In this document: positions 1,546-7,640 of the stretch, in pieces
How the letters are laid out: every line of letters starts with the position of its first letter
Numbering within the stretch: the stretch's first letter is position 1
Assembly: GCA_002070755.1 (NCBI GenBank)
Contig: MWDY01000132.1
Coordinates: 1 to 7,735 of the forward strand
Origin: Spirochaetes bacterium ADurb.Bin110
Lineage (GTDB): Bacteria; Spirochaetota; Spirochaetia; Treponematales; Rectinemataceae
Direction: 5' to 3'
DNA length: 7,735 nucleotides
Made by a program: the position numbers and the translations under genes
Notes under the pieces: model-generated
Database searches by the model: none
What the model was told of the DNA's origin: nothing
The model's input: only the letters and a program-made list of their open reading frames with translations

Positions 1546-2376
1546 ATGGAAATTCGAGAAGCGATTAATTCTGAGTTTGCAAAAAAAATGGGGACAGAGG
1601 ATTTGCGCAAGGCTTTTTTGGTGGAGAAAGTCTTTATTGTTGGAGACATGACAGCCATCTATAGTCATGTAGATAGGATGATAATTGGAGGTATTGTTCC
1701 AACCTCCGTCCCTATCGCGCTACCAGTGAGCAAAGAATTGGGGACAGAGTTTTTTCTAGAACGGCGAGAGATGGGAATTATCAATATCGGAGGAGAAGGA
1801 TCTATCGAGGTAGATGGCAACACCTATGATGTTGGACAACGAGATGCTTTATATATCTCGATGGGTTCAAAATATGTAATATTTTCAAGCAAGAATCCAA
1901 AAGAGCCGGCAAAATTCTATTTCAATAGCGCACCCGCTCATAGAGCATGCAAAACAAGGCTTATCACTTTTGATCAAGCTAACCATGTGGCGCTGGGTAG
2001 TGATGCGGAGTGCAATAAAAGAGTGATCAATCAATATATTCATCCGACAGTTCTCGAAACATGCCAGCTTGTAATGGGAATGACGACTTTTTCGGAAGGG
2101 AGTGTCTGGAACACAATGCCGGCACACACACATGAGAGGCGAATGGAGGCATATCTATATTTTGATATGCCAGATGACAGAGTAGTATTTCATTTGATGG
2201 GCAAACCGCAGGAAACGCGCCATATTGTAGTACGAAACGAGCAGGCCATAATCAGTCCGAGCTGGTCGATTCATTCAGGAGTAGGAACTGGGAAATATAC
2301 CTTTATTTGGGGCATGGCCGGGGAAAACCAGACTTTTGATGATATGGATAATGTCAATATGACTGATCTACGTTGA
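1546..2376 (+). CDS. kduI: 5-dehydro-4-deoxy-D-glucuronate isomerase
   Basis: KduI converts 5-dehydro-4-deoxy-D-glucuronate, the product of polyuronide lyase/hydrolase action, to 2,5-diketo-3-deoxygluconate in the cytoplasm. At 276 residues it is close to the E. coli enzyme (278). It is a two-cupin-domain zinc protein. The zinc ligands can be placed as His194 and His196 (PAHTHERRMEAYLYF), Glu201 and His243 (WSIHSGVGTGKYTFIWGM), each two residues from the E. coli positions. Other family segments are VEKVF (26-30), FFLERREMGIINIGG (69-83) and LETCQLVMGMT (170-180). AAGGAG lies five bases before the ATG. The gene heads the cluster and probably shares a transcript with kduD 28 bases downstream. 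An exact copy of the dispersed repeat (1703-1713, antisense) encodes TSVP at residues 53-56, in a loop that looks variable next to E. coli. Confidence 0.96.
   Translation: MEIREAINSEFAKKMGTEDLRKAFLVEKVFIVGDMTAIYSHVDRMIIGGIVPTSVPIALPVSKELGTEFFLERREMGIINIGGEGSIEVDGNTYDVGQRDALYISMGSKYVIFSSKNPKEPAKFYFNSAPAHRACKTRLITFDQANHVALGSDAECNKRVINQYIHPTVLETCQLVMGMTTFSEGSVWNTMPAHTHERRMEAYLYFDMPDDRVVFHLMGKPQETRHIVVRNEQAIISPSWSIHSGVGTGKYTFIWGMAGENQTFDDMDNVNMTDLR
1703..1713 (-). repeat. Dispersed repeat AGGGACGGAGG, copy inside kduI (antisense)
   Basis: This is the only copy on the minus strand. The 13-base form including TT reaches down to 1701. In the sense direction it reads across kduI residues 52-56 (PTSVP), so it is tolerated in a coding region in an orientation unlike the other intragenic copies. 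Confidence 0.85.
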
Positions 2377-2391
2377 ACTGATCTATATTGA
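2362..2391 (+). repeat. Tandem 15-bp duplication at the 3' end of kduI
   Basis: ACTGATCTACGTTGA (2362-2376) is followed directly by ACTGATCTATATTGA (2377-2391), with two mismatches. The kduI TGA is the end of the first unit. The second unit supplies most of the spacer before the kduD ribosome-binding site. A local slippage duplication is the simplest explanation. Confidence 0.8.
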
Positions 2392-2404
2392 AAGGAGAAA
2401 AGAT

Positions 2405-3166
2405 ATGATTTTGGATAAATTTAAGCTCGATGGCAAAGTAGCGATTGTAACCGGGAGTTCGACTGGCCTCGGACAAGGAATGAGCATTGCACTTTCAGAA
2501 GCTGGAGCAGACGTTGTAGGGGTAGATTACGTACCATCAAAGGAGACAGCTAGTTTCATAGAGGCACAAGGGAACAAATACCTAGAGATTGTAGCAAACC
2601 TTCTGACAATAGAGCCAATTCAGGGCATCTTAGATAAGACCATAAGCACTTTTGGACGAGTGGATATTTTGGTCAACAATGCTGGAATTATTAGGCGAGA
2701 AGATGCAATTAATTTTAAGGAGAAAGATTGGGACGATGTCATGGACCTGAATGCCAAGACAGTATTCTTCTTTAGTCAGGCAGTGGCGCGAAAATATATC
2801 GAACAAGGGACGGGAGGAAAGATCATCAATATTGCATCAATGCTTTCATTCCAGGGAGGAATAAGGGTGCCTTCTTATACAGCATCGAAAAGTGCCGTGA
2901 TGGGTCTGACAAGATTATTAGCAAATGAATGGGCAAAATATAAGATCAATGTGAATGCAATTGCTCCAGGCTATATGGCAACTAACAATACAGCGGAGCT
3001 GAGAGCAGATAGAGAGCGTTCAGAGGAGATCCTGGGTCGCATACCAGCGGGTCGATGGGGTACGCCTGAAGATGTGAAAGGCGCTGCTGTCTTTTTAGCA
3101 TCATCAGCAAGCGATTATGTTAATGGGTATACTGTCGCTGTCGATGGCGGTTGGCTGGCTAGATAA
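2405..3166 (+). CDS. kduD: 2-deoxy-D-gluconate 3-dehydrogenase / 2,5-diketo-3-deoxygluconate reductase
   Basis: KduD is a cytoplasmic short-chain dehydrogenase that reduces 2,5-diketo-3-deoxygluconate to 2-keto-3-deoxygluconate with NAD(P)H, the step after KduI. The 253-residue length is standard. Visible signatures are the nucleotide-binding TGSSTGLG (16-23), NNAG (91-94) and the catalytic tetrad Asn116, Ser145 (IINIASMLSFQGG), Tyr158 and Lys162 (YTASK). PGYMATNNT (188-196) and the C-terminal DGGWLAR ending are characteristic of KduD as opposed to other SDRs. An acidic residue at the end of the second strand (Asp41) suggests preference for NADH. AAAGGAG (2391-2397) precedes the ATG by seven bases. 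Adjacency to kduI makes the assignment firm. A 233-base gap with two repeat copies separates it from the next gene. Confidence 0.95.
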   Translation: MILDKFKLDGKVAIVTGSSTGLGQGMSIALSEAGADVVGVDYVPSKETASFIEAQGNKYLEIVANLLTIEPIQGILDKTISTFGRVDILVNNAGIIRREDAINFKEKDWDDVMDLNAKTVFFFSQAVARKYIEQGTGGKIINIASMLSFQGGIRVPSYTASKSAVMGLTRLLANEWAKYKINVNAIAPGYMATNNTAELRADRERSEEILGRIPAGRWGTPEDVKGAAVFLASSASDYVNGYTVAVDGGWLAR

Positions 3167-3195
3167 CAGTAATAACAAGTTCATGTGGGGATTAG

Positions 3196-3206
3196 AGGGA
3201 CGGAGG
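3196..3206 (+). repeat. Dispersed repeat AGGGACGGAGG, intergenic after kduD
   Basis: An exact copy, preceded by TAG (a 14-base match with the copy at 7609) and followed by ATTA instead of the commoner TT. It lies 30 bases after the kduD stop. Confidence 0.85.
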
Positions 3207-3322
3207 ATTAATACAGCCTAGATGTGAGGGTTGCAGATTTAAATAGTCTGACATATGGGCACTATAGGTAGTTTTTACTTAGAAGACGGAAGGGTTATGG
3301 TCCTATGGCTCTGCATAGCTCT

Positions 3323-3333
3323 AGGGACGGAGG
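3323..3333 (+). repeat. Dispersed repeat AGGGACGGAGG, intergenic before the YhcH-family gene
   Basis: An exact copy followed by TTTATTGAA. It lies 127 bases after the previous copy in the same orientation. It contains a perfect GGAGG, but no start codon at a suitable distance opens a meaningful frame, so it is not a ribosome-binding site. Confidence 0.85.
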
Positions 3334-3399
3334 TTTATTGAATAATTAACAAAAGCGATTGTTTATTTATTCAGAATTCCCTATATAAGGAGTAAGAAA

Positions 3400-3858
3400 A
3401 TGATTGTCAGCATGCTTTCAGAATTATCTAGATATCGAGGACTTAGTAAAAATCTAGATATCGCTTTTGATTGGCTCCATAAGGGACTTTGGCGTCAGCT
3501 TTCAACAGGGAAGTATTCTATTGAGGGCGATGTTGTCTTTGCGCTCATTCAAGAATATACAGCTAAAGAACATTCAGAGTGCAGATTTGAATCTCATCGA
3601 GAATATATAGACATTCAAATGATGATTTCTGGAAAAGAAATCATTGAGGTGCTGCCAGTAAATGCACTCAAAGTCATTGAGCCTTACAAGCCTGATATAG
3701 AATTTTATGCTTTACCAACAGATAGAAATGCTAATGTTTTGGCGATGAATGCTGAGCAACTTGCAATTTTTTTCCCCGAGGATGCCCATCGGCCATGTAT
3801 GAAAGCGGGAGCATTGGCGGAATCGGTGAGAAAAGTTGTGGTAAAAGTAGCTATATAA
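3400..3858 (+). CDS. YhcH/YjgK/YiaL (EbgC/TabA-like) family protein
   Basis: This 152-residue protein belongs to the small cupin-like YhcH/YjgK/YiaL family, which also includes the EbgC beta-galactosidase subunit and TabA. Diagnostic segments are FESHREYIDIQMMISGKE (63-80), whose Glu64, His66 and Asp71 are likely metal ligands, and FFPEDAHRPCM (124-134) with His130. A basic-valine strand (KVVVKV, 145-150) closes the barrel. Members occur in sugar-acid and sialic acid operons and are thought to act on sugar isomers or anomers, but the exact reaction is usually unknown. Its place between kduD and the aldolase gene suggests an accessory role in uronate metabolism, perhaps handling a cyclic or anomeric form of an intermediate. 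AAGGAG ends seven bases before the ATG, which supports the start. The family is sure; the function is inferred. Confidence 0.9.
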   Translation: MIVSMLSELSRYRGLSKNLDIAFDWLHKGLWRQLSTGKYSIEGDVVFALIQEYTAKEHSECRFESHREYIDIQMMISGKEIIEVLPVNALKVIEPYKPDIEFYALPTDRNANVLAMNAEQLAIFFPEDAHRPCMKAGALAESVRKVVVKVAI

Positions 3859-4005
3859 GTATTAAAGTTAAAAGAATGGATATCATATTTATTTCAATCA
3901 GGAATTGAAGAACGGATCGGAAAGATTTTATCTGGCTGGAATTTTGATTGGAAATTGCTAACTAAGGAAATCAGATAAATTGTGTATTGGATATCGGAGA
4001 AAATA

Positions 4006-4016
4006 GGAGACGGAGG
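4006..4016 (+). repeat. Near copy of the dispersed repeat (9 of 11 bases)
   Basis: GGAGACGGAGG matches the consensus AGGGACGGAGG except at positions 1 and 3, and the last eight bases are identical. It is followed by ATTT, as the copy at 3196 is followed by ATTA. It may be a decayed copy. Confidence 0.5.
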
Positions 4017-4078
4017 ATTTTCCAAAAGAAACAATTAGGACTGAAAAAATACCATGTTAACGTGGATTTTGTCGGCTC

Positions 4079-4107
4079 TAGCTAAAGGAGAGACTTGACT
4101 TTAGCTA
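4079..4107 (+). promoter_or_regulatory. Perfect 9-bp inverted repeat upstream of the aldolase gene
   Basis: TAGCTAAAG (4079-4087) and CTTTAGCTA (4099-4107) are exact reverse complements around an 11-base spacer that contains GGAGAGACTTGA. It ends 40 bases before the aldolase ATG. No T run follows directly, so it is not a typical terminator. It could be an operator or a leader hairpin. Confidence 0.5.
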
Positions 4108-4147
4108 TGTGGACTAGAACATAACATAGATTTTTAAGGATTATGCA

Positions 4148-5011
4148 ATGGTAAAAAAAGAGGAAATAGGAGAACTATTTTATAGAAATGGTCTTATCCC
4201 TGTAATAAAGATTGATTCTGCGGATACAGCTGATGGTCTTGCTACAGCACTTCGTAGAGGTGGGTTGTCTGTTGCTGAGATTACTTTTAGGACAAAGGCT
4301 GCACCTAAAGTAATTGAGAGATTTGCATCATGCTATGAGGATATTTTGATTGGCGCTGGAACGGTGACGAAAAAAGATGAAGTAGATGCAGCTATTTCGG
4401 CAGGAGCACAATTTATTGTCTCTCCAGGTTTTAACCCATCAATATGTGAATACTGTTTGGGAAAAGATGTTCCTATTTTCCCAGGGGTAAACAACCCTTC
4501 GCTTATAGAGCAAGCTATGGCTATGGGCCTTAACATTTTGAAATTTTTTCCTGCAGAGGTCTCTGGTGGCGCTAAGGCTCTTAATGCATTCAGGTCAGTG
4601 TATCAGCAGGTGTCATTCATCCCTACAGGAGGAATTCAGGAAAACAACATTAATGAATACCTTTCTTTGAAGAATGTGTTGGCTTGCGGTGGCTCATGGA
4701 TTGTCTCAGCAGACCTTCTTGAAGCAGGAAAATTTGATGAAATTGAGAGACTTGTAAAATCTGCACGACGAGCGATGATAGGATTCCTGCCAATTGTGCA
4801 GGAGGGCATAGATGAGGAGAACCAGAGCAGATCAATGAGGGACGGAGGTTGTATTGAAGTCAAAACCCCATCGATCAAAAGAACATTGGCTATGCTTTCT
4901 TATTTTAAAGCTTATGTTATTCCTGGTTCCGAGATCGAAAATAAACAGGGTTTACTTGAGGTGAGCGTGGGTATTCCAGGATTACATGCTCAAATTCATC
5001 TTGTTGAATAG
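4148..5011 (+). CDS. kdgA: 2-keto-3-deoxy-6-phosphogluconate aldolase (Eda/KdgA) with a C-terminal extension
   Basis: This class I aldolase splits KDPG into pyruvate and glyceraldehyde 3-phosphate and may also act on 4-hydroxy-2-oxoglutarate. The TIM-barrel domain is residues 1 to about 207. The Schiff-base Lys132 lies in LKFFPAE (131-137), the general acid/base Glu44 and Arg48 in AEITFRT (43-49), and the phosphate-site loops are GAGTVT, SPGFNP, PTGGI and GGSW. AAGGA ends seven bases before the ATG. At 287 residues it exceeds the usual 205-215. The last 80 or so residues resemble the VOC (glyoxalase-like) domain fused to some clostridial-type Eda proteins: MIGF (210-213), GIDEEN, GCIEVK (234-239) and the closing AQIHLVE match the order I recall. 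It is shorter, however, and a repeat copy lies at residues 231-234. It is translationally close to kdgK, 14 bases away. Confidence 0.93.
   Translation: MVKKEEIGELFYRNGLIPVIKIDSADTADGLATALRRGGLSVAEITFRTKAAPKVIERFASCYEDILIGAGTVTKKDEVDAAISAGAQFIVSPGFNPSICEYCLGKDVPIFPGVNNPSLIEQAMAMGLNILKFFPAEVSGGAKALNAFRSVYQQVSFIPTGGIQENNINEYLSLKNVLACGGSWIVSADLLEAGKFDEIERLVKSARRAMIGFLPIVQEGIDEENQSRSMRDGGCIEVKTPSIKRTLAMLSYFKAYVIPGSEIENKQGLLEVSVGIPGLHAQIHLVE
4838..4848 (+). repeat. Dispersed repeat AGGGACGGAGG, copy inside the aldolase gene
   Basis: An exact copy followed by TTGTAT; it shares 15 bases (TGAGGGACGGAGGTT) with the kdgK copy. It is read in frame as Arg231-Asp-Gly-Gly234 in the C-terminal extension of the aldolase. 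Confidence 0.85.
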
Positions 5012-5025
5012 GGAGGAGAATTGGA

Positions 5026-6051
5026 ATGAGCATAGCAACATTTGGGGAGATTATGCTTAGGTTAAAATCTCCTGGACAGGAAAGATTACTTCAGTCGCCT
5101 TTTTTTGAAGCAACTTTTGGCGGAAGTGAAGCGAATGTGGCTGTTGCTCTCTCAAGATTGGGCATTCCAGCGCGCTTTATTAGTATTTTGCCAGACAATC
5201 CAATTGGAAGAGAATGCATGAGAGAGCTTCGATCGCATGGTGTTGATGTTTCATGCCTAAAATTTAAGAAGGGGAGGCTGGGAATATATTTTTTCGAGAA
5301 TGGAGCCAATCAGCGTCCAAGTAATGTCATTTATGATAGGGAAAACTCAGCAATTTCAAGAATTACTGAAGAGGACATCGACTGGGATGCTTCATTTAAA
5401 GATATGCAATGGTTTCATATATCAGGAATTACACCTGCTCTTTCTCAAAATTGCGCTGATGAAACGATTAAAGCTGTTCGTACTGCTAAAGACAAGGGAT
5501 TGACTGTATCTTTTGATTTGAATTATAGAGCCAAATTATGGAACTATGGAGCGGAAGCATATAGTGTGATGTCAAAAATTGCGCGATATGCAGATATTCT
5601 TATAGGGAATGAAGAAGACTATCAAAAATCATTAGGTATTAAGGGCCCTTCAGCTATTGGAGCTCAACAGCTTGATCTCGATGCATATCAAGCGATGTGT
5701 GAGATTGCTTTAAAGCAATACCCAAACGCAAAGATAGCAGCAGTGACTCTTCGAGAGAGTTTCTCAGCCGATAATAATGATTGGTCAGGGATGATCGTCA
5801 GTGAGGGACGGAGGTTTGTATCGCGTAAATATCATATATCCGATATTGTGGATAGAGTTGGGGCTGGAGATAGTTTTGTCGCCGGTCTAATATATGGATT
5901 GATTACGAAGAAGGACTATCAGGCAGCCCTTGAATATGCTGCTGCGCTTTCCTGCTTAAAGCATTCTATTTCTGGCGATTTTGCTCTTATTGAAAAGGGA
6001 GAGATTGAGAAGCTCTTAGGAGGAGATGCCTCTGGTAGAGTACAACGTTAG
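5026..6051 (+). CDS. kdgK: 2-keto-3-deoxygluconate kinase (PfkB family)
   Basis: KdgK phosphorylates KDG with ATP to KDPG, the substrate of the aldolase encoded just upstream. The 341-residue sequence has the ribokinase/PfkB layout: GEIM (7-10), the substrate-binding FGGSEANVAVALSRLG (31-46), FDLNYR (163-168), GNEED (194-198), TLRESFSADNNDWSG (241-255) and the anion-hole/catalytic motif DRVGAGDSFVAGLIYGL (276-292), with Asp282 as catalytic base. The late KHSISGDFA segment (312-320) is typical of KDG kinases. GGGAGGAG (5011-5018) lies directly after the aldolase stop and seven bases before the ATG, so the two genes form an operon and are probably coupled. A copy of the dispersed repeat encodes Glu260-Gly-Arg-Arg263 in the loop before the last catalytic block. 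It is the last plus-strand gene and faces prs, with 52 bases between. Confidence 0.94.
   Translation: MSIATFGEIMLRLKSPGQERLLQSPFFEATFGGSEANVAVALSRLGIPARFISILPDNPIGRECMRELRSHGVDVSCLKFKKGRLGIYFFENGANQRPSNVIYDRENSAISRITEEDIDWDASFKDMQWFHISGITPALSQNCADETIKAVRTAKDKGLTVSFDLNYRAKLWNYGAEAYSVMSKIARYADILIGNEEDYQKSLGIKGPSAIGAQQLDLDAYQAMCEIALKQYPNAKIAAVTLRESFSADNNDWSGMIVSEGRRFVSRKYHISDIVDRVGAGDSFVAGLIYGLITKKDYQAALEYAAALSCLKHSISGDFALIEKGEIEKLLGGDASGRVQR
5804..5814 (+). repeat. Dispersed repeat AGGGACGGAGG, copy inside kdgK
   Basis: An exact copy followed by TTTGTAT, read as part of Glu260-Gly-Arg-Arg-Phe264. The reading phase differs from that in the aldolase copy, so the shared feature is the DNA and not a peptide. 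Confidence 0.85.
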
Positions 6052-6103
6052 ACTGCTTTTAATTTGCCTTCACTTTAATTATTGGAAGGACGAGGATGGG
6101 TCT

Positions 6104-7432
6104 TCATGGCTTATTAGCGGCGCCATAAGGAATAACATCTTCACTTATATTCTCATCCTTTGGCTGATTTGAAGAGACTCTACTACTACCTGTACTTTCT
6201 AACTTTTTCTTGATAAGACGAGCCACAACATCACGATTATCCAAAAGAGAGCTCAAGGATCTATCGTGATGCAGCAAGCTAATTACCTGCGCAAAAAGGC
6301 CAGTGACGTCACTCTGGATATACCACTCTTTTTTAAGCAATTCATTATGATATATGGCATTTGTTCCTATTACTCTATAAAATAATCCTTCCTTGTAAGC
6401 AGCGTCAAATTCATCAATTGCATTTGCTGAAAAAATTGGAAGGCTAACTGCACATATAACTTTGCTGGCGCCAAGTTCTTTTAGATATCTCATTGCCTTA
6501 ATAAGAGTTCCGCCGGTGCCGATCATGTCATCTGCCATAAAGACAACTTTATTCGAGACATTACCGAGTAATCGCATTTCACTGATATTGGTTTCTGCTG
6601 CACTTTTAGTGATTTTTGAATAGTCTCTTTCTTTGTAAAGTAAAGCTAAGGGCTTTTGTAAAGCATTTGCATAGAATTTATTTCGATCGACTGCACCTGT
6701 ATCTGGGGCAAGTACTACTATATCTTCTTTTGCTATATCAATAATCGACGTCAGCTTTTCGATGATCTGAAAAGAAGCATGCAAGTTCTCCATTCGGAGC
6801 CGGTCAAATGCATTCTCAATTTCCTTTGAGTGAATATCAAGAGTGATGATTCTATCAACACCAAGGCTTTCCAGCATCTTGCCTATGCGAGCTGCAGTTA
6901 ATCCCTCTCTTCCCTTTTTCTTATGTTGTCGCGAATAGGGATATATTGGTAGCACAAGACTTATTTCTGCAGCTCCAGCTTGCATGGCAGCGTCAATAGC
7001 TACAAAAAGGTTAAAAATATGATCATTTACTGAAAGGACTTTTTGAATAGTGCCATCATTAAATGAGACAGGTTGATGATTTTCTACATCCTGAAAGATA
7101 TAAATACTTCTTCCCCTGATAGATTCAAGGATTTCTGTTTTTATCTCGCCATTTGCAAAAAAAGTATGTCTTACATCGATCTTGAATTTGGGTGGTCGAT
7201 AACGTTCTTTATCTCCTGGCAAAAAAAGCATGCCAGTGTTACAGTCATTTGCAAAGTTGATCTTTCTAATAACCAGATCAGGAGTGATATGATATCTTCC
7301 TGCAATAGCTTGAGCTTTTCTCATGAATCGATGCTTATAGATTCCAGAGAGCTTTCGTATAACCTGATTTGCGAACGCCTCTGCTCCTGGGCAAGCAATA
7401 ATACCTAGATGGGTTGGATCTGAATAACTCAT
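6104..7432 (-). CDS. prs: Ribose-phosphate pyrophosphokinase, long form
   Basis: Prs makes PRPP from ribose 5-phosphate and ATP for nucleotide, His and Trp synthesis in the cytoplasm. Family motifs are FANGE (92-96), YPYSRQHKKKGREGLTAARI (164-183) for ATP binding, TLDIHS (197-202) with the catalytic-type His201, APDTGAVDRNKF (242-253) and the PRPP loop MADDMIGTGGT (299-309). The loop has Gly305 where E. coli Prs has Asp. At 442 residues it is well above the usual 310-320. The excess is an N-terminal insertion (about 30-80), small internal insertions and a polar C-terminal tail (about 408-442) rich in Ser, Glu and Lys. I associate this long form with spirochaetes. GGAAGG (7439-7444) lies six bases before the ATG. 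It is convergent with kdgK and unrelated to the uronate genes. Function is confident; the role of the extra segments is unknown. Confidence 0.93.
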   Translation of the reverse strand: MSYSDPTHLGIIACPGAEAFANQVIRKLSGIYKHRFMRKAQAIAGRYHITPDLVIRKINFANDCNTGMLFLPGDKERYRPPKFKIDVRHTFFANGEIKTEILESIRGRSIYIFQDVENHQPVSFNDGTIQKVLSVNDHIFNLFVAIDAAMQAGAAEISLVLPIYPYSRQHKKKGREGLTAARIGKMLESLGVDRIITLDIHSKEIENAFDRLRMENLHASFQIIEKLTSIIDIAKEDIVVLAPDTGAVDRNKFYANALQKPLALLYKERDYSKITKSAAETNISEMRLLGNVSNKVVFMADDMIGTGGTLIKAMRYLKELGASKVICAVSLPIFSANAIDEFDAAYKEGLFYRVIGTNAIYHNELLKKEWYIQSDVTGLFAQVISLLHHDRSLSSLLDNRDVVARLIKKKLESTGSSRVSSNQPKDENISEDVIPYGAANKP

Positions 7433-7496
7433 GCAAAGCCTTCCGTATTTGAATTCAACAAATTGGTGCGGATGAGAAACAAGAGAAATCTTAATT

Positions 7497-7524
7497 AGTA
7501 TAGCCCAAAATTACCCAAATGAAT
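7497..7524 (-). promoter_or_regulatory. Weak candidate promoter for prs
   Basis: On the minus strand TATACT (7497-7502) is a fair -10, and ATTCAT (7519-7524) sits 16 bases upstream as a poor -35. It would leave a leader of about 60 bases before the prs ATG at 7432. Confidence 0.25.
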
Positions 7525-7608
7525 AGAATCTTTCAAAAGAGAATTTGGGAGCGATTTGTTTATATATAGAAAAGGGAATCTTTAATATAGAATGGCTGCT
7601 CTTAATAG

Positions 7609-7619
7609 AGGGACGGAGG
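7609..7619 (+). repeat. Dispersed repeat AGGGACGGAGG, upstream of prs
   Basis: An exact copy with TAG before it (14 bases shared with the copy at 3196) and TAACAATTG after it. It lies outside the uronate cluster, so the repeat is not specific to those genes. Confidence 0.85.
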
Positions 7620-7640
7620 TAACAATTGTAATTCAATAAT

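Follow-up and report, generated by a model that had tools for sequence, protein, structure and literature searches.

The window (the whole stretch of DNA analyzed, 7,735 nucleotides of contig MWDY01000132.1 of Spirochaetes bacterium ADurb.Bin110) contains repeated copies of the 11-mer AGGGACGGAGG, which belong to a local cloud of sites around a gene for a REP-associated tyrosine transposase (RAYT; REP, repetitive extragenic palindrome). Comparison of genomes at the sequence level revealed the cloud itself, its association with RAYT genes, a word specific to each RAYT, conservation of sites that depends on the RAYT, and a dip in GC content at the RAYTs of Rectinema. We consider it probable that the sites are recognition sequences of a RAYT that acts locally and in whose presence they are maintained; motif copies seem to persist mainly where a RAYT gene is near.

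Clustering of sites around RAYT genes

The genome that holds the window (G000) is a 1.31-Mb metagenome-assembled genome (MAG) of 176 contigs, 79% complete. Over 407 residues, the PRPP-synthetase of the window shares 96% identity with its counterpart in a "Treponema sp." MAG (AS4BglBPHE_29) and 91% with the one in Rectinema subterraneum, and the host is therefore a Rectinema-like spirochaete. The 10-mer GGGACGGAGG occurs 34 times in G000, and 33 of the copies lie on five contigs totaling 67.4 kb (binomial P of ~1e-41; this test and the Fisher tests below take sites as independent), with one copy in the remaining ~1.24 Mb. The exact 11-mer has 14 copies genome-wide, seven of them on the window's own 9.4-kb contig. 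Since all five contigs match a single stretch (~163 to 280 kb) of contig C4 of the relative G019 by blastn, they are chromosomal neighbors and not contamination, and mis-binned contigs as a source of the copies were ruled out by this synteny. The initial annotation had reasoned that a genome-wide count near expectation would reduce the repeats in the window to a coincidence; elsewhere the count is indeed low, yet the clustering here is not coincidental.

The full motif derived from 41 sites in G000 is [AG]GGGAC[AG]GAGGTT. The TT extension noted earlier was borne out, each of the two following positions being T in 78% of these sites, and comparison of flanks across copies revealed nothing common beyond [AG]...TT. 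Eighteen sites are sense, 18 are antisense, and five lie outside open frames (at least 120 codons), with all three phases represented, which argues against the earlier suggestion of an RNA-level signal. Of the 10 genomes of the genus, 8 contain the 12-mer GGGACGGAGGTT; among the 20 others of the family it is present in 5, once in each.

Contig C138 of G000 encodes a 162-residue Y1 protein (positions 13479 to 13967). The distance by synteny between this RAYT and the end of the aligned part of the window is ~1 kb in G018 and ~2.5 kb in G019. The protein scores 45.6 bits against Y1_Tnp (cutoff, 23), its sole Pfam match at an E value of ≤0.001, and no C-terminal helix-turn-helix (HTH)/Bac_DnaA_C domain was found in the 162 residues. 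The motifs of class 2 enzymes are intact, with NHIH as the HUH motif and YISNNP around the tyrosine; N-H-x-H, Y, and N-P are invariant in an alignment of seven such proteins, which matches E. coli TnpAREP (4er8) as a profile. Against NF047646, the NCBIfam model for REP-associated tyrosine transposases (cutoff, 80 bits), the proteins of G000 and G002 remained under the cutoff (71.9 and 77.5 bits), while those of G012 and G010:C23 were over it (93.4 and 93.8 bits), so that two of the three relatives scanned exceeded it. The enzyme is a probable member of the RAYT/TnpAREP group. Another Y1 match of G000 (C13, 27.6 bits) was rejected, as no intact RAYT frame was seen there and it has no cloud. In G019, the RAYT of locus A (C4, ~232.4 to 232.9 kb; L065, 6900 to 7384) appears split over two reading frames, by a frameshift or an assembly error.

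The densest clusters of the genus (g1) surround RAYTs, on G000:C138, G018:C164, G019:C4 and C7, G023:C42 and C55, and G022:C137; the other half of the last cloud is at the end of C70, an adjacency shown by four relatives. No copy of the 12-mer was found near three IS200-type Y1 genes (G015:C12, G019:C7:261291, and G019:C18). From the 34 Y1 matches in the family we set aside five IS200-type or fragment matches, on score and length, and the C13 match; 20 of the 28 remaining regions were read, 7.6 to 20 kb or more each (left out were three in G003, one in G009, G011:C80, two in G013, and one in G025). De novo 9-mer counts gave a clear cloud in 17 of the 20, with a word made up of GGGAC[AG]G plus three bases that vary by RAYT. 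The three RAYTs of G010 have three different words, with counts per 20 kb of 16/0/0 for AGAGC, 0/12/1 for AGACC, and 0/0/13 for AGTCC. Within 10 kb of the 17 RAYTs the density was 0.45 to 2.1 sites per kb, compared with a Markov expectation of 0 to 2.2 copies per whole region, and beyond 10 kb it was 1.8- to 10.6-fold lower in nine of the ten regions with outer DNA. At 12 of the 17 loci, a motif copy lies on the 5' side, 250 to 720 bp from the RAYT midpoint, which suggests autoregulation or an element end.

A search of the phylum (247 genomes, 45 of them with a match at an E value of ≤1e-25) led to 20 regions that were read, eight with a GGGACRG cloud and one more with a GTGTCAGAGC word. Top word scores were 21 to 60 in the eight clouds and 9 to 18 at 15 control loci, of which eight were checked to be RAYT-free. 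In the closed 4.06-Mb genome G246, 17 of 69 copies of GGGACAGAGC, several of them in short arrays, are within 10 kb of one of its three RAYTs. Outside the phylum, 5 of 16 records were fetched, and two had local clusters. In Acetoanaerobium noterae (Bacillota), 27 of the 29 copies of GGGACGGTTC on a 2.63-Mb replicon fall in 81 kb ending just beyond the RAYT, and in Pseudoalteromonas sp. THAF3 (Pseudomonadota), 10 of the 11 copies of GGGTCAGAGT on an 801-kb replicon are within 5 kb round the RAYT. The Sporomusa, Chlorohelix, and Skermanella regions had no such cloud.

Six motif copies occur in 193 bp immediately upstream of a RAYT in L293 (G097:C1, ~9486 to 9678), and the same genome has other short motif arrays spaced ~13 to 28 bp and 352 copies of GGGACAGASC. 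The 2.63-Mb "plasmid" of the A. noterae record (NZ_CP154629.1) is chromosome-sized. Near a RAYT relative on a Candidatus Chlorohelix plasmid (L313), a unit with TGAACCTAA / CAATCTGAC is repeated ~65 times in 20 kb, possibly a CRISPR array. More distant RAYTs have other words nearby, namely, seven GTGTCAGAGC-like copies (L306, G041:C22) and five copies of ACGACACTA (L303, G211:C6).

Conservation of sites with and without the RAYT

Alignment was used to locate the sites in relatives, random 10-mers were treated alike, and unaligned sites were not counted. In the 10 comparisons in which both genomes have the RAYT, 54 to 95% of alignable sites were conserved (random 10-mers, 5.8 to 25.5%), and in the nine in which the RAYT is missing at the locus, 0 to 37% were (random, 4.8 to 19.2%). 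With the RAYT in both genomes, the values were 37/39 for G000 to G018 (random, 25.5%) and 38/41 in reverse (25.2%), 22/29 for G000 to G019 (5.8%) and 22/31 in reverse (5.9%), 10/13 for G000 to G023 (8.0%), 24/30 for G022 to G019 (20.9%) and 24/34 in reverse (20.0%), 17/23 for G022 to G023 (7.4%) and 17/25 in reverse (6.5%), and 15/28 for G019 to G023 (7.9%). With the RAYT missing, no site was conserved from G000 to G022 (0/7), G018 to G022 (0/7), or G000 to G017 (0/5), and one was from G000 to G015 (1/5) and from G019 to G022 at locus A (1/17; random, 17.8%); at locus B, the values were 9/26 for G022 to G015 (11.8%), 8/22 for G022 to G017 (11.6%), 11/30 for G019 to G015 (17.8%), and 8/23 for G019 to G017 (19.2%). 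The difference had a Fisher P of 9e-4 for G022 to G019 versus G015 and of 1.3e-5 for G019 to G000 versus G022, and sites of G022 were better conserved in G023 than in G015 (P of 0.0096), although G023 is the more diverged of the two.

The unaligned sites numbered 2 (G018), 12 (G019), 28 (G023), 34 (G022), 36 (G017), and 36 (G015) of the 41 in G000; 2 (G019), 6 (G015), 10 (G017), and 9 (G023) of the 32 in G022; and 3 (G022), 7 (G015), 14 (G017), and 9 (G023) of the 37 at locus B of G019. For the 21 kb of the G022 locus A that was compared, they were 43 of 60 from G019 and 55 of 62 from G018. Absence of the RAYT at locus A was read from the RAYT query for G022 and G017 and from the family Y1 listing for G015, whose locus stops short of the RAYT position. 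In RAYT-bearing pairs most sites had 0 mismatches, while in pairs with a loss the sites were spread over 0 to 3 and more. Flank identity was under the mean identity in all 10 RAYT-bearing comparisons (gap columns counted as differences), and slow local evolution is thus no explanation for the conservation of sites.

G022 has no RAYT at locus A and one site in 21 kb there, while its RAYT_B, elsewhere in the genome, has a cloud of the same word; a RAYT elsewhere in the genome thus does not hold the locus A sites. Cis preference is known for many bacterial transposases, and the result at locus A of G022 fits it.

Origin of the sites

The presence of the RAYT within the cluster is in keeping with an explanation in which the copies are very small mobile repeats, degenerate REPs or terminal inverted repeats (TIRs), that the RAYT pasted locally and that were later kept by chance or mild use. 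Some intergenic copies are in stretches absent from relatives, and the brackets between alignment anchors often differ in length: 11 of 20 are equal between G019 and G022 and nine differ by 5 to 65 bp, while between G000 and G017 two of eight are equal and six differ, two intergenic ones by 218 bp. The arrangement of copies in A. noterae, in which several inward pairs 65 to 160 bp apart flank the RAYT like small TIR-bounded elements, and in Pseudoalteromonas, in which seven left and three right copies near the RAYT all face inward as TIRs do, points the same way, as does a mild inward excess among Rectinema pairs 61 to 200 bp apart (12 versus 4 outward). Nevertheless, we regard pasting as an unlikely source of the sites as a whole. 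Of the 66 aligned nonconserved sites (unaligned sites are uncounted) in four comparisons with loci that lack the RAYT, 55 were ungapped in the 10-mer, with one to five substitutions; flanks differ between copies; and site positions are conserved at ~72% identity. Because these 55 sites are without a gap, most alignable sites look like evolved, putative binding sites, and insertion may be the origin of some others, intergenic ones above all. The earlier proposal of an origin by a RAYT/IS200-type element was right about the kind of enzyme involved, while transposition is not supported as the main origin. A TIR-like orientation toward the RAYT, promising at locus B, was not borne out by pooling over the 17 loci, where 206 of 373 sites within 20 kb face the RAYT (P of 0.049); the common orientation of five of six copies that had been pointed out thus applies to the window and not generally.

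Instead, the motif of 10 to 13 bases would be the recognition sequence of the RAYT-type HUH/Y1 single-strand DNA enzyme encoded beside the window. We infer that the RAYT binds or nicks the motif, that the effect is local owing to a transposase-like cis preference, and that a drift toward AT comes from nicking and the repair that follows. The RAYT would bind its word in single-stranded DNA and may nick it there, mostly in cis over ~10 to 40 kb around its own gene, and sites would come and go largely through point mutation in ordinary genes, being held while the RAYT is present and decaying once it is lost. Cells or DNA molecules with the word may fare better under the RAYT, through a host benefit, protection from mis-cutting, or biased repair or transfer, and the holding force could be selection on the cell or a drive favoring RAYT-bearing DNA. 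Repeated nicking and repair would produce the AT drift where it is seen.

Several observations weigh against maintenance by a locally acting RAYT. The cloud of G019 persists at locus A, where the RAYT looks frameshifted. Within 10 kb, and without the RAYT, G015 still has 10 sites and G017 has 8; nearly all of the sites left at locus B of these two genomes are common with G022 (9/11 and 8/8), the two share six of nine aligned sites (random, 31%), and the flanking DNA is syntenic with the RAYT segment gone, and these sites were therefore read as remnants. That RAYT_A was lost in G022, G015, and G017 rather than never present is a reading by parsimony. Three of the 20 family regions are cloud-less (G011:C28, G001:C79, of which 7.6 kb only was read, and G014:C26, whose Y1 gene was not matched by the RAYT query), as are 11 of the 20 phylum regions for either word. 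The density in G023:C55 is flat across the 25-kb contig (0.80 and 0.76), and the regions used to pick the words were also those used to count them. An unrelated low-complexity word scores 33 to 40 in RAYT regions L291 and L292, and a word score alone is therefore no proof. G246 has clumps at which no RAYT was found (11 copies at 676 to 698 kb and 8 at 3250 to 3255 kb), and the A. noterae copies are nearly all on one side of the RAYT, up to 80 kb off. As for base composition, G021:C64, the densest cloud, has nearly no GC dip, G019:C4 has cloud-less low-GC bins (70, 100, 115 to 125, and 170 to 175 kb), and the branch of G017 only shows no GC gain, with one bin at 15 to 20 kb in the opposite direction (12:53).

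Base composition around the RAYT genes

In Rectinema (G022B, G019B, G023B, and G019A), GC content falls from 0.52 to 0.64 at 20 to 30 kb to 0.40 to 0.49 in the two central 5-kb bins. Aligned columns near the site are higher in GC in genomes without the RAYT: for G019 versus G015, GC columns stood at 499:179, 253:63, and 644:230 within 10 kb and at 348:285, 307:297, and 189:191 at 20 to 35 kb, and for G022 versus G015, they stood at 752:244 at -5 to 0 kb, with a weaker effect for G017 (488:349 there). When the changes were polarized with G023, the clade that lost the RAYT had GC gains of 90:23, 55:13, 25:8, and 92:20 in four bins within 10 kb, while the RAYT-bearing branches were mostly balanced or GC-losing. 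Other genera have smaller dips, which may be the RAYT gene itself. Strand-specific deamination was rejected, as the strand asymmetry was not consistent. Along G019:C4 (160 to 255 kb), GC skew is often ~-0.1 on the cloud-bearing origin-proximal arm, with exceptions, and ~0.02 to 0.05 on the other side.

The low GC at Rectinema clouds and the existence of other low-GC stretches would also fit AT-rich, oddly composed blocks that collect RAYTs and the motif, with no causation between the two. This is improbable, and we disfavor it: the motif is GC-rich and differs among the RAYTs of one genome, clouds also occur in DNA of 0.58 to 0.68 GC (G021:C64 and G010), the other low-GC bins of G019:C4 lack clouds, and the same columns are higher in GC where the RAYT is missing. 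Likewise disfavored, and very improbable, is an origin-proximal chromosome-organizing motif (matS/parS-like) with the RAYT as a bystander; in G019, locus A is 35 to 90 kb away from dnaA and the minimum of the GC skew, but the second cloud (locus B), on another contig, is also round a RAYT, and in G022 the locus A region has one site whereas the RAYT locus has a cloud.

In Neisseria and Haemophilus, DNA uptake sequences (DUS/USS) are short sites in genes, about one per 1 to 2 kb, genome-wide. The sites described here resemble them in their location in genes and their substitution-type change but are local and tied to a gene; as a genome-wide strand or uptake motif in this assembly (Chi, KOPS, or DUS/USS), which had been among the first suggestions, they are refuted by the single exact 10-mer of 34 outside the five syntenic contigs, the mixed orientation, and the RAYT-specific sequence.

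Sites in the window

The six exact copies of AGGGACGGAGG and the 9/11 copy are at the places and on the strands reported in the initial annotation, and their excess over chance was upheld: there were 10 matches at ≤2 mismatches, compared with a mean of 0.97 (maximum, 4) in 200 shuffles, and six copies of the 11-mer, compared with a maximum of three for any 11-mer in 200 sequences generated from the window by a first-order Markov model. The genes of the window are ordinary genes (NifU-like, IclR, KduI-family, a KduD-like short-chain dehydrogenase, DUF386, KDPG-aldolase, PfkB kinase, and PRPP-synthetase).

The KduI-family gene holds two sites, both conserved in G018: GGGGACAGAGG at 1590 to 1600 (plus strand), the A variant at the motif position that holds A or G, which was missing from the earlier list, and an exact copy followed by TT at 1703 to 1713 (minus strand), antisense to the gene, which reads T-S-V-P. 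The counterpart of the latter in the RAYT-less G017 has the same length and a diverged sequence. Two exact plus-strand copies are intergenic, one at 3196 to 3206, after the kduD-like gene, in a stretch missing in G018, and one at 3323 to 3333, followed by TTT, before the DUF386 gene, where G018 keeps the core despite diverged flanks; the intergenic bracket of each site is 218 bp shorter in G017. The two-mismatch site GGAGACGGAGG at 4006 to 4016 (plus strand, intergenic) is intact as GGGGACAGAGG in G018. At 4838 to 4848 (plus strand), an exact copy followed by TT, conserved in G018, lies in the KDPG-aldolase-family gene past its Pfam domain (M-R-D-G-G); this gene (4148 to 5011) extends ~85 residues past the domain (14 to 202 of 287), and the motif site is in that part. 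The exact copy at 5804 to 5814 (plus strand), followed by TTT, in the PfkB-family (KDG-kinase-like) gene (E-G-R-R-F) is also conserved in G018, and its counterpart in G017 is locally ungapped and diverged. The last exact copy, at 7609 to 7619 (plus strand), is intergenic, upstream of the PRPP-synthetase gene, and is not aligned in G018; of the copies in the window it is the nearest to the RAYT, which is on another contig (G000:C138:13479-13967).

Relation to known systems and significance

RAYTs are found in about a quarter of bacterial species (PMC8266576). Among known systems, the closest likeness is the TIRYT/TIRtron, in which a RAYT-like Y1 gene is accompanied by a short motif other than a REP, with the reported TIR consensus GGGGWSAS (Di Nocera et al. 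2013, PMC3733652). TIRYTs have TIRs at the gene, some of which belong to repeat families, dimers, or clusters; they correspond to TnpAY1 subclass 2.1 in Quentin et al. (2018, PMC6006769), who state that no REPs turned up close to subclasses 2.1 and 2.3. Here, too, a RAYT-like Y1 gene goes with a short non-REP motif, and GGGGACAG fits GGGGWSAS, but the commonest site in G000, GGGACGG, is one base off. In contrast to TIRYTs, the sites are mostly single, mostly in genes, and spread over tens of kb with no orientation rule, they are conserved between species where the RAYT stays, and the RAYT has 162 residues with no HTH tail found. The inverted bounding pair of TIRYTs was not seen here, the nearest left and right sites not being regularly inverted, whereas it looks present in A. 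noterae and Pseudoalteromonas.

The RAYT/REP and REPIN systems (E. coli TnpAREP, PDB 4er8) share with this one the enzyme superfamily and a sequence family of its own for each enzyme. REPs are described as palindromic with a GT[AG]G foot (PMC6006769), and in Marinomonas they are concentrated near their tnpAREP genes, which was read as recent arrival (PMC8266576), a local concentration similar to that found here. The present sites differ in that no palindrome was seen (by flank comparison, no folding having been run), in being in coding sequence, and in being common to species ~72% identical. In the literature searched, with most subscription papers outside the search, we found no description of single sites lying within ordinary genes, of a conservation that depends on the RAYT, or of a GC dip; GGGGACAG appeared there as a PCR primer in one paper, and the other hits listed looked unrelated by title.

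A bolder possibility, which we put forward tentatively and consider less likely than not, is that RAYTs of this type act as a cis-acting drive or local genome-editing system that nicks single-stranded DNA at sites near its own gene, so that DNA with both the RAYT and the site is preferentially repaired, recombined, or passed on. If this is true, point mutation would write a RAYT-specific word into core genes over tens of kb, and the word would be kept while the RAYT stays, possibly with an AT-rich mutational scar, as a local, gene-centered counterpart of uptake sequences in at least three phyla. The clouds provide a candidate recognition sequence for each RAYT, including GGGACRGAGGTT, and the function of RAYTs, unsettled so far, becomes directly testable. 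They suggest that the RAYT acts in cis over tens of kb, where conservation of sites goes with its presence, and that a relative of transposases can dictate bases in the ordinary genes that surround it.

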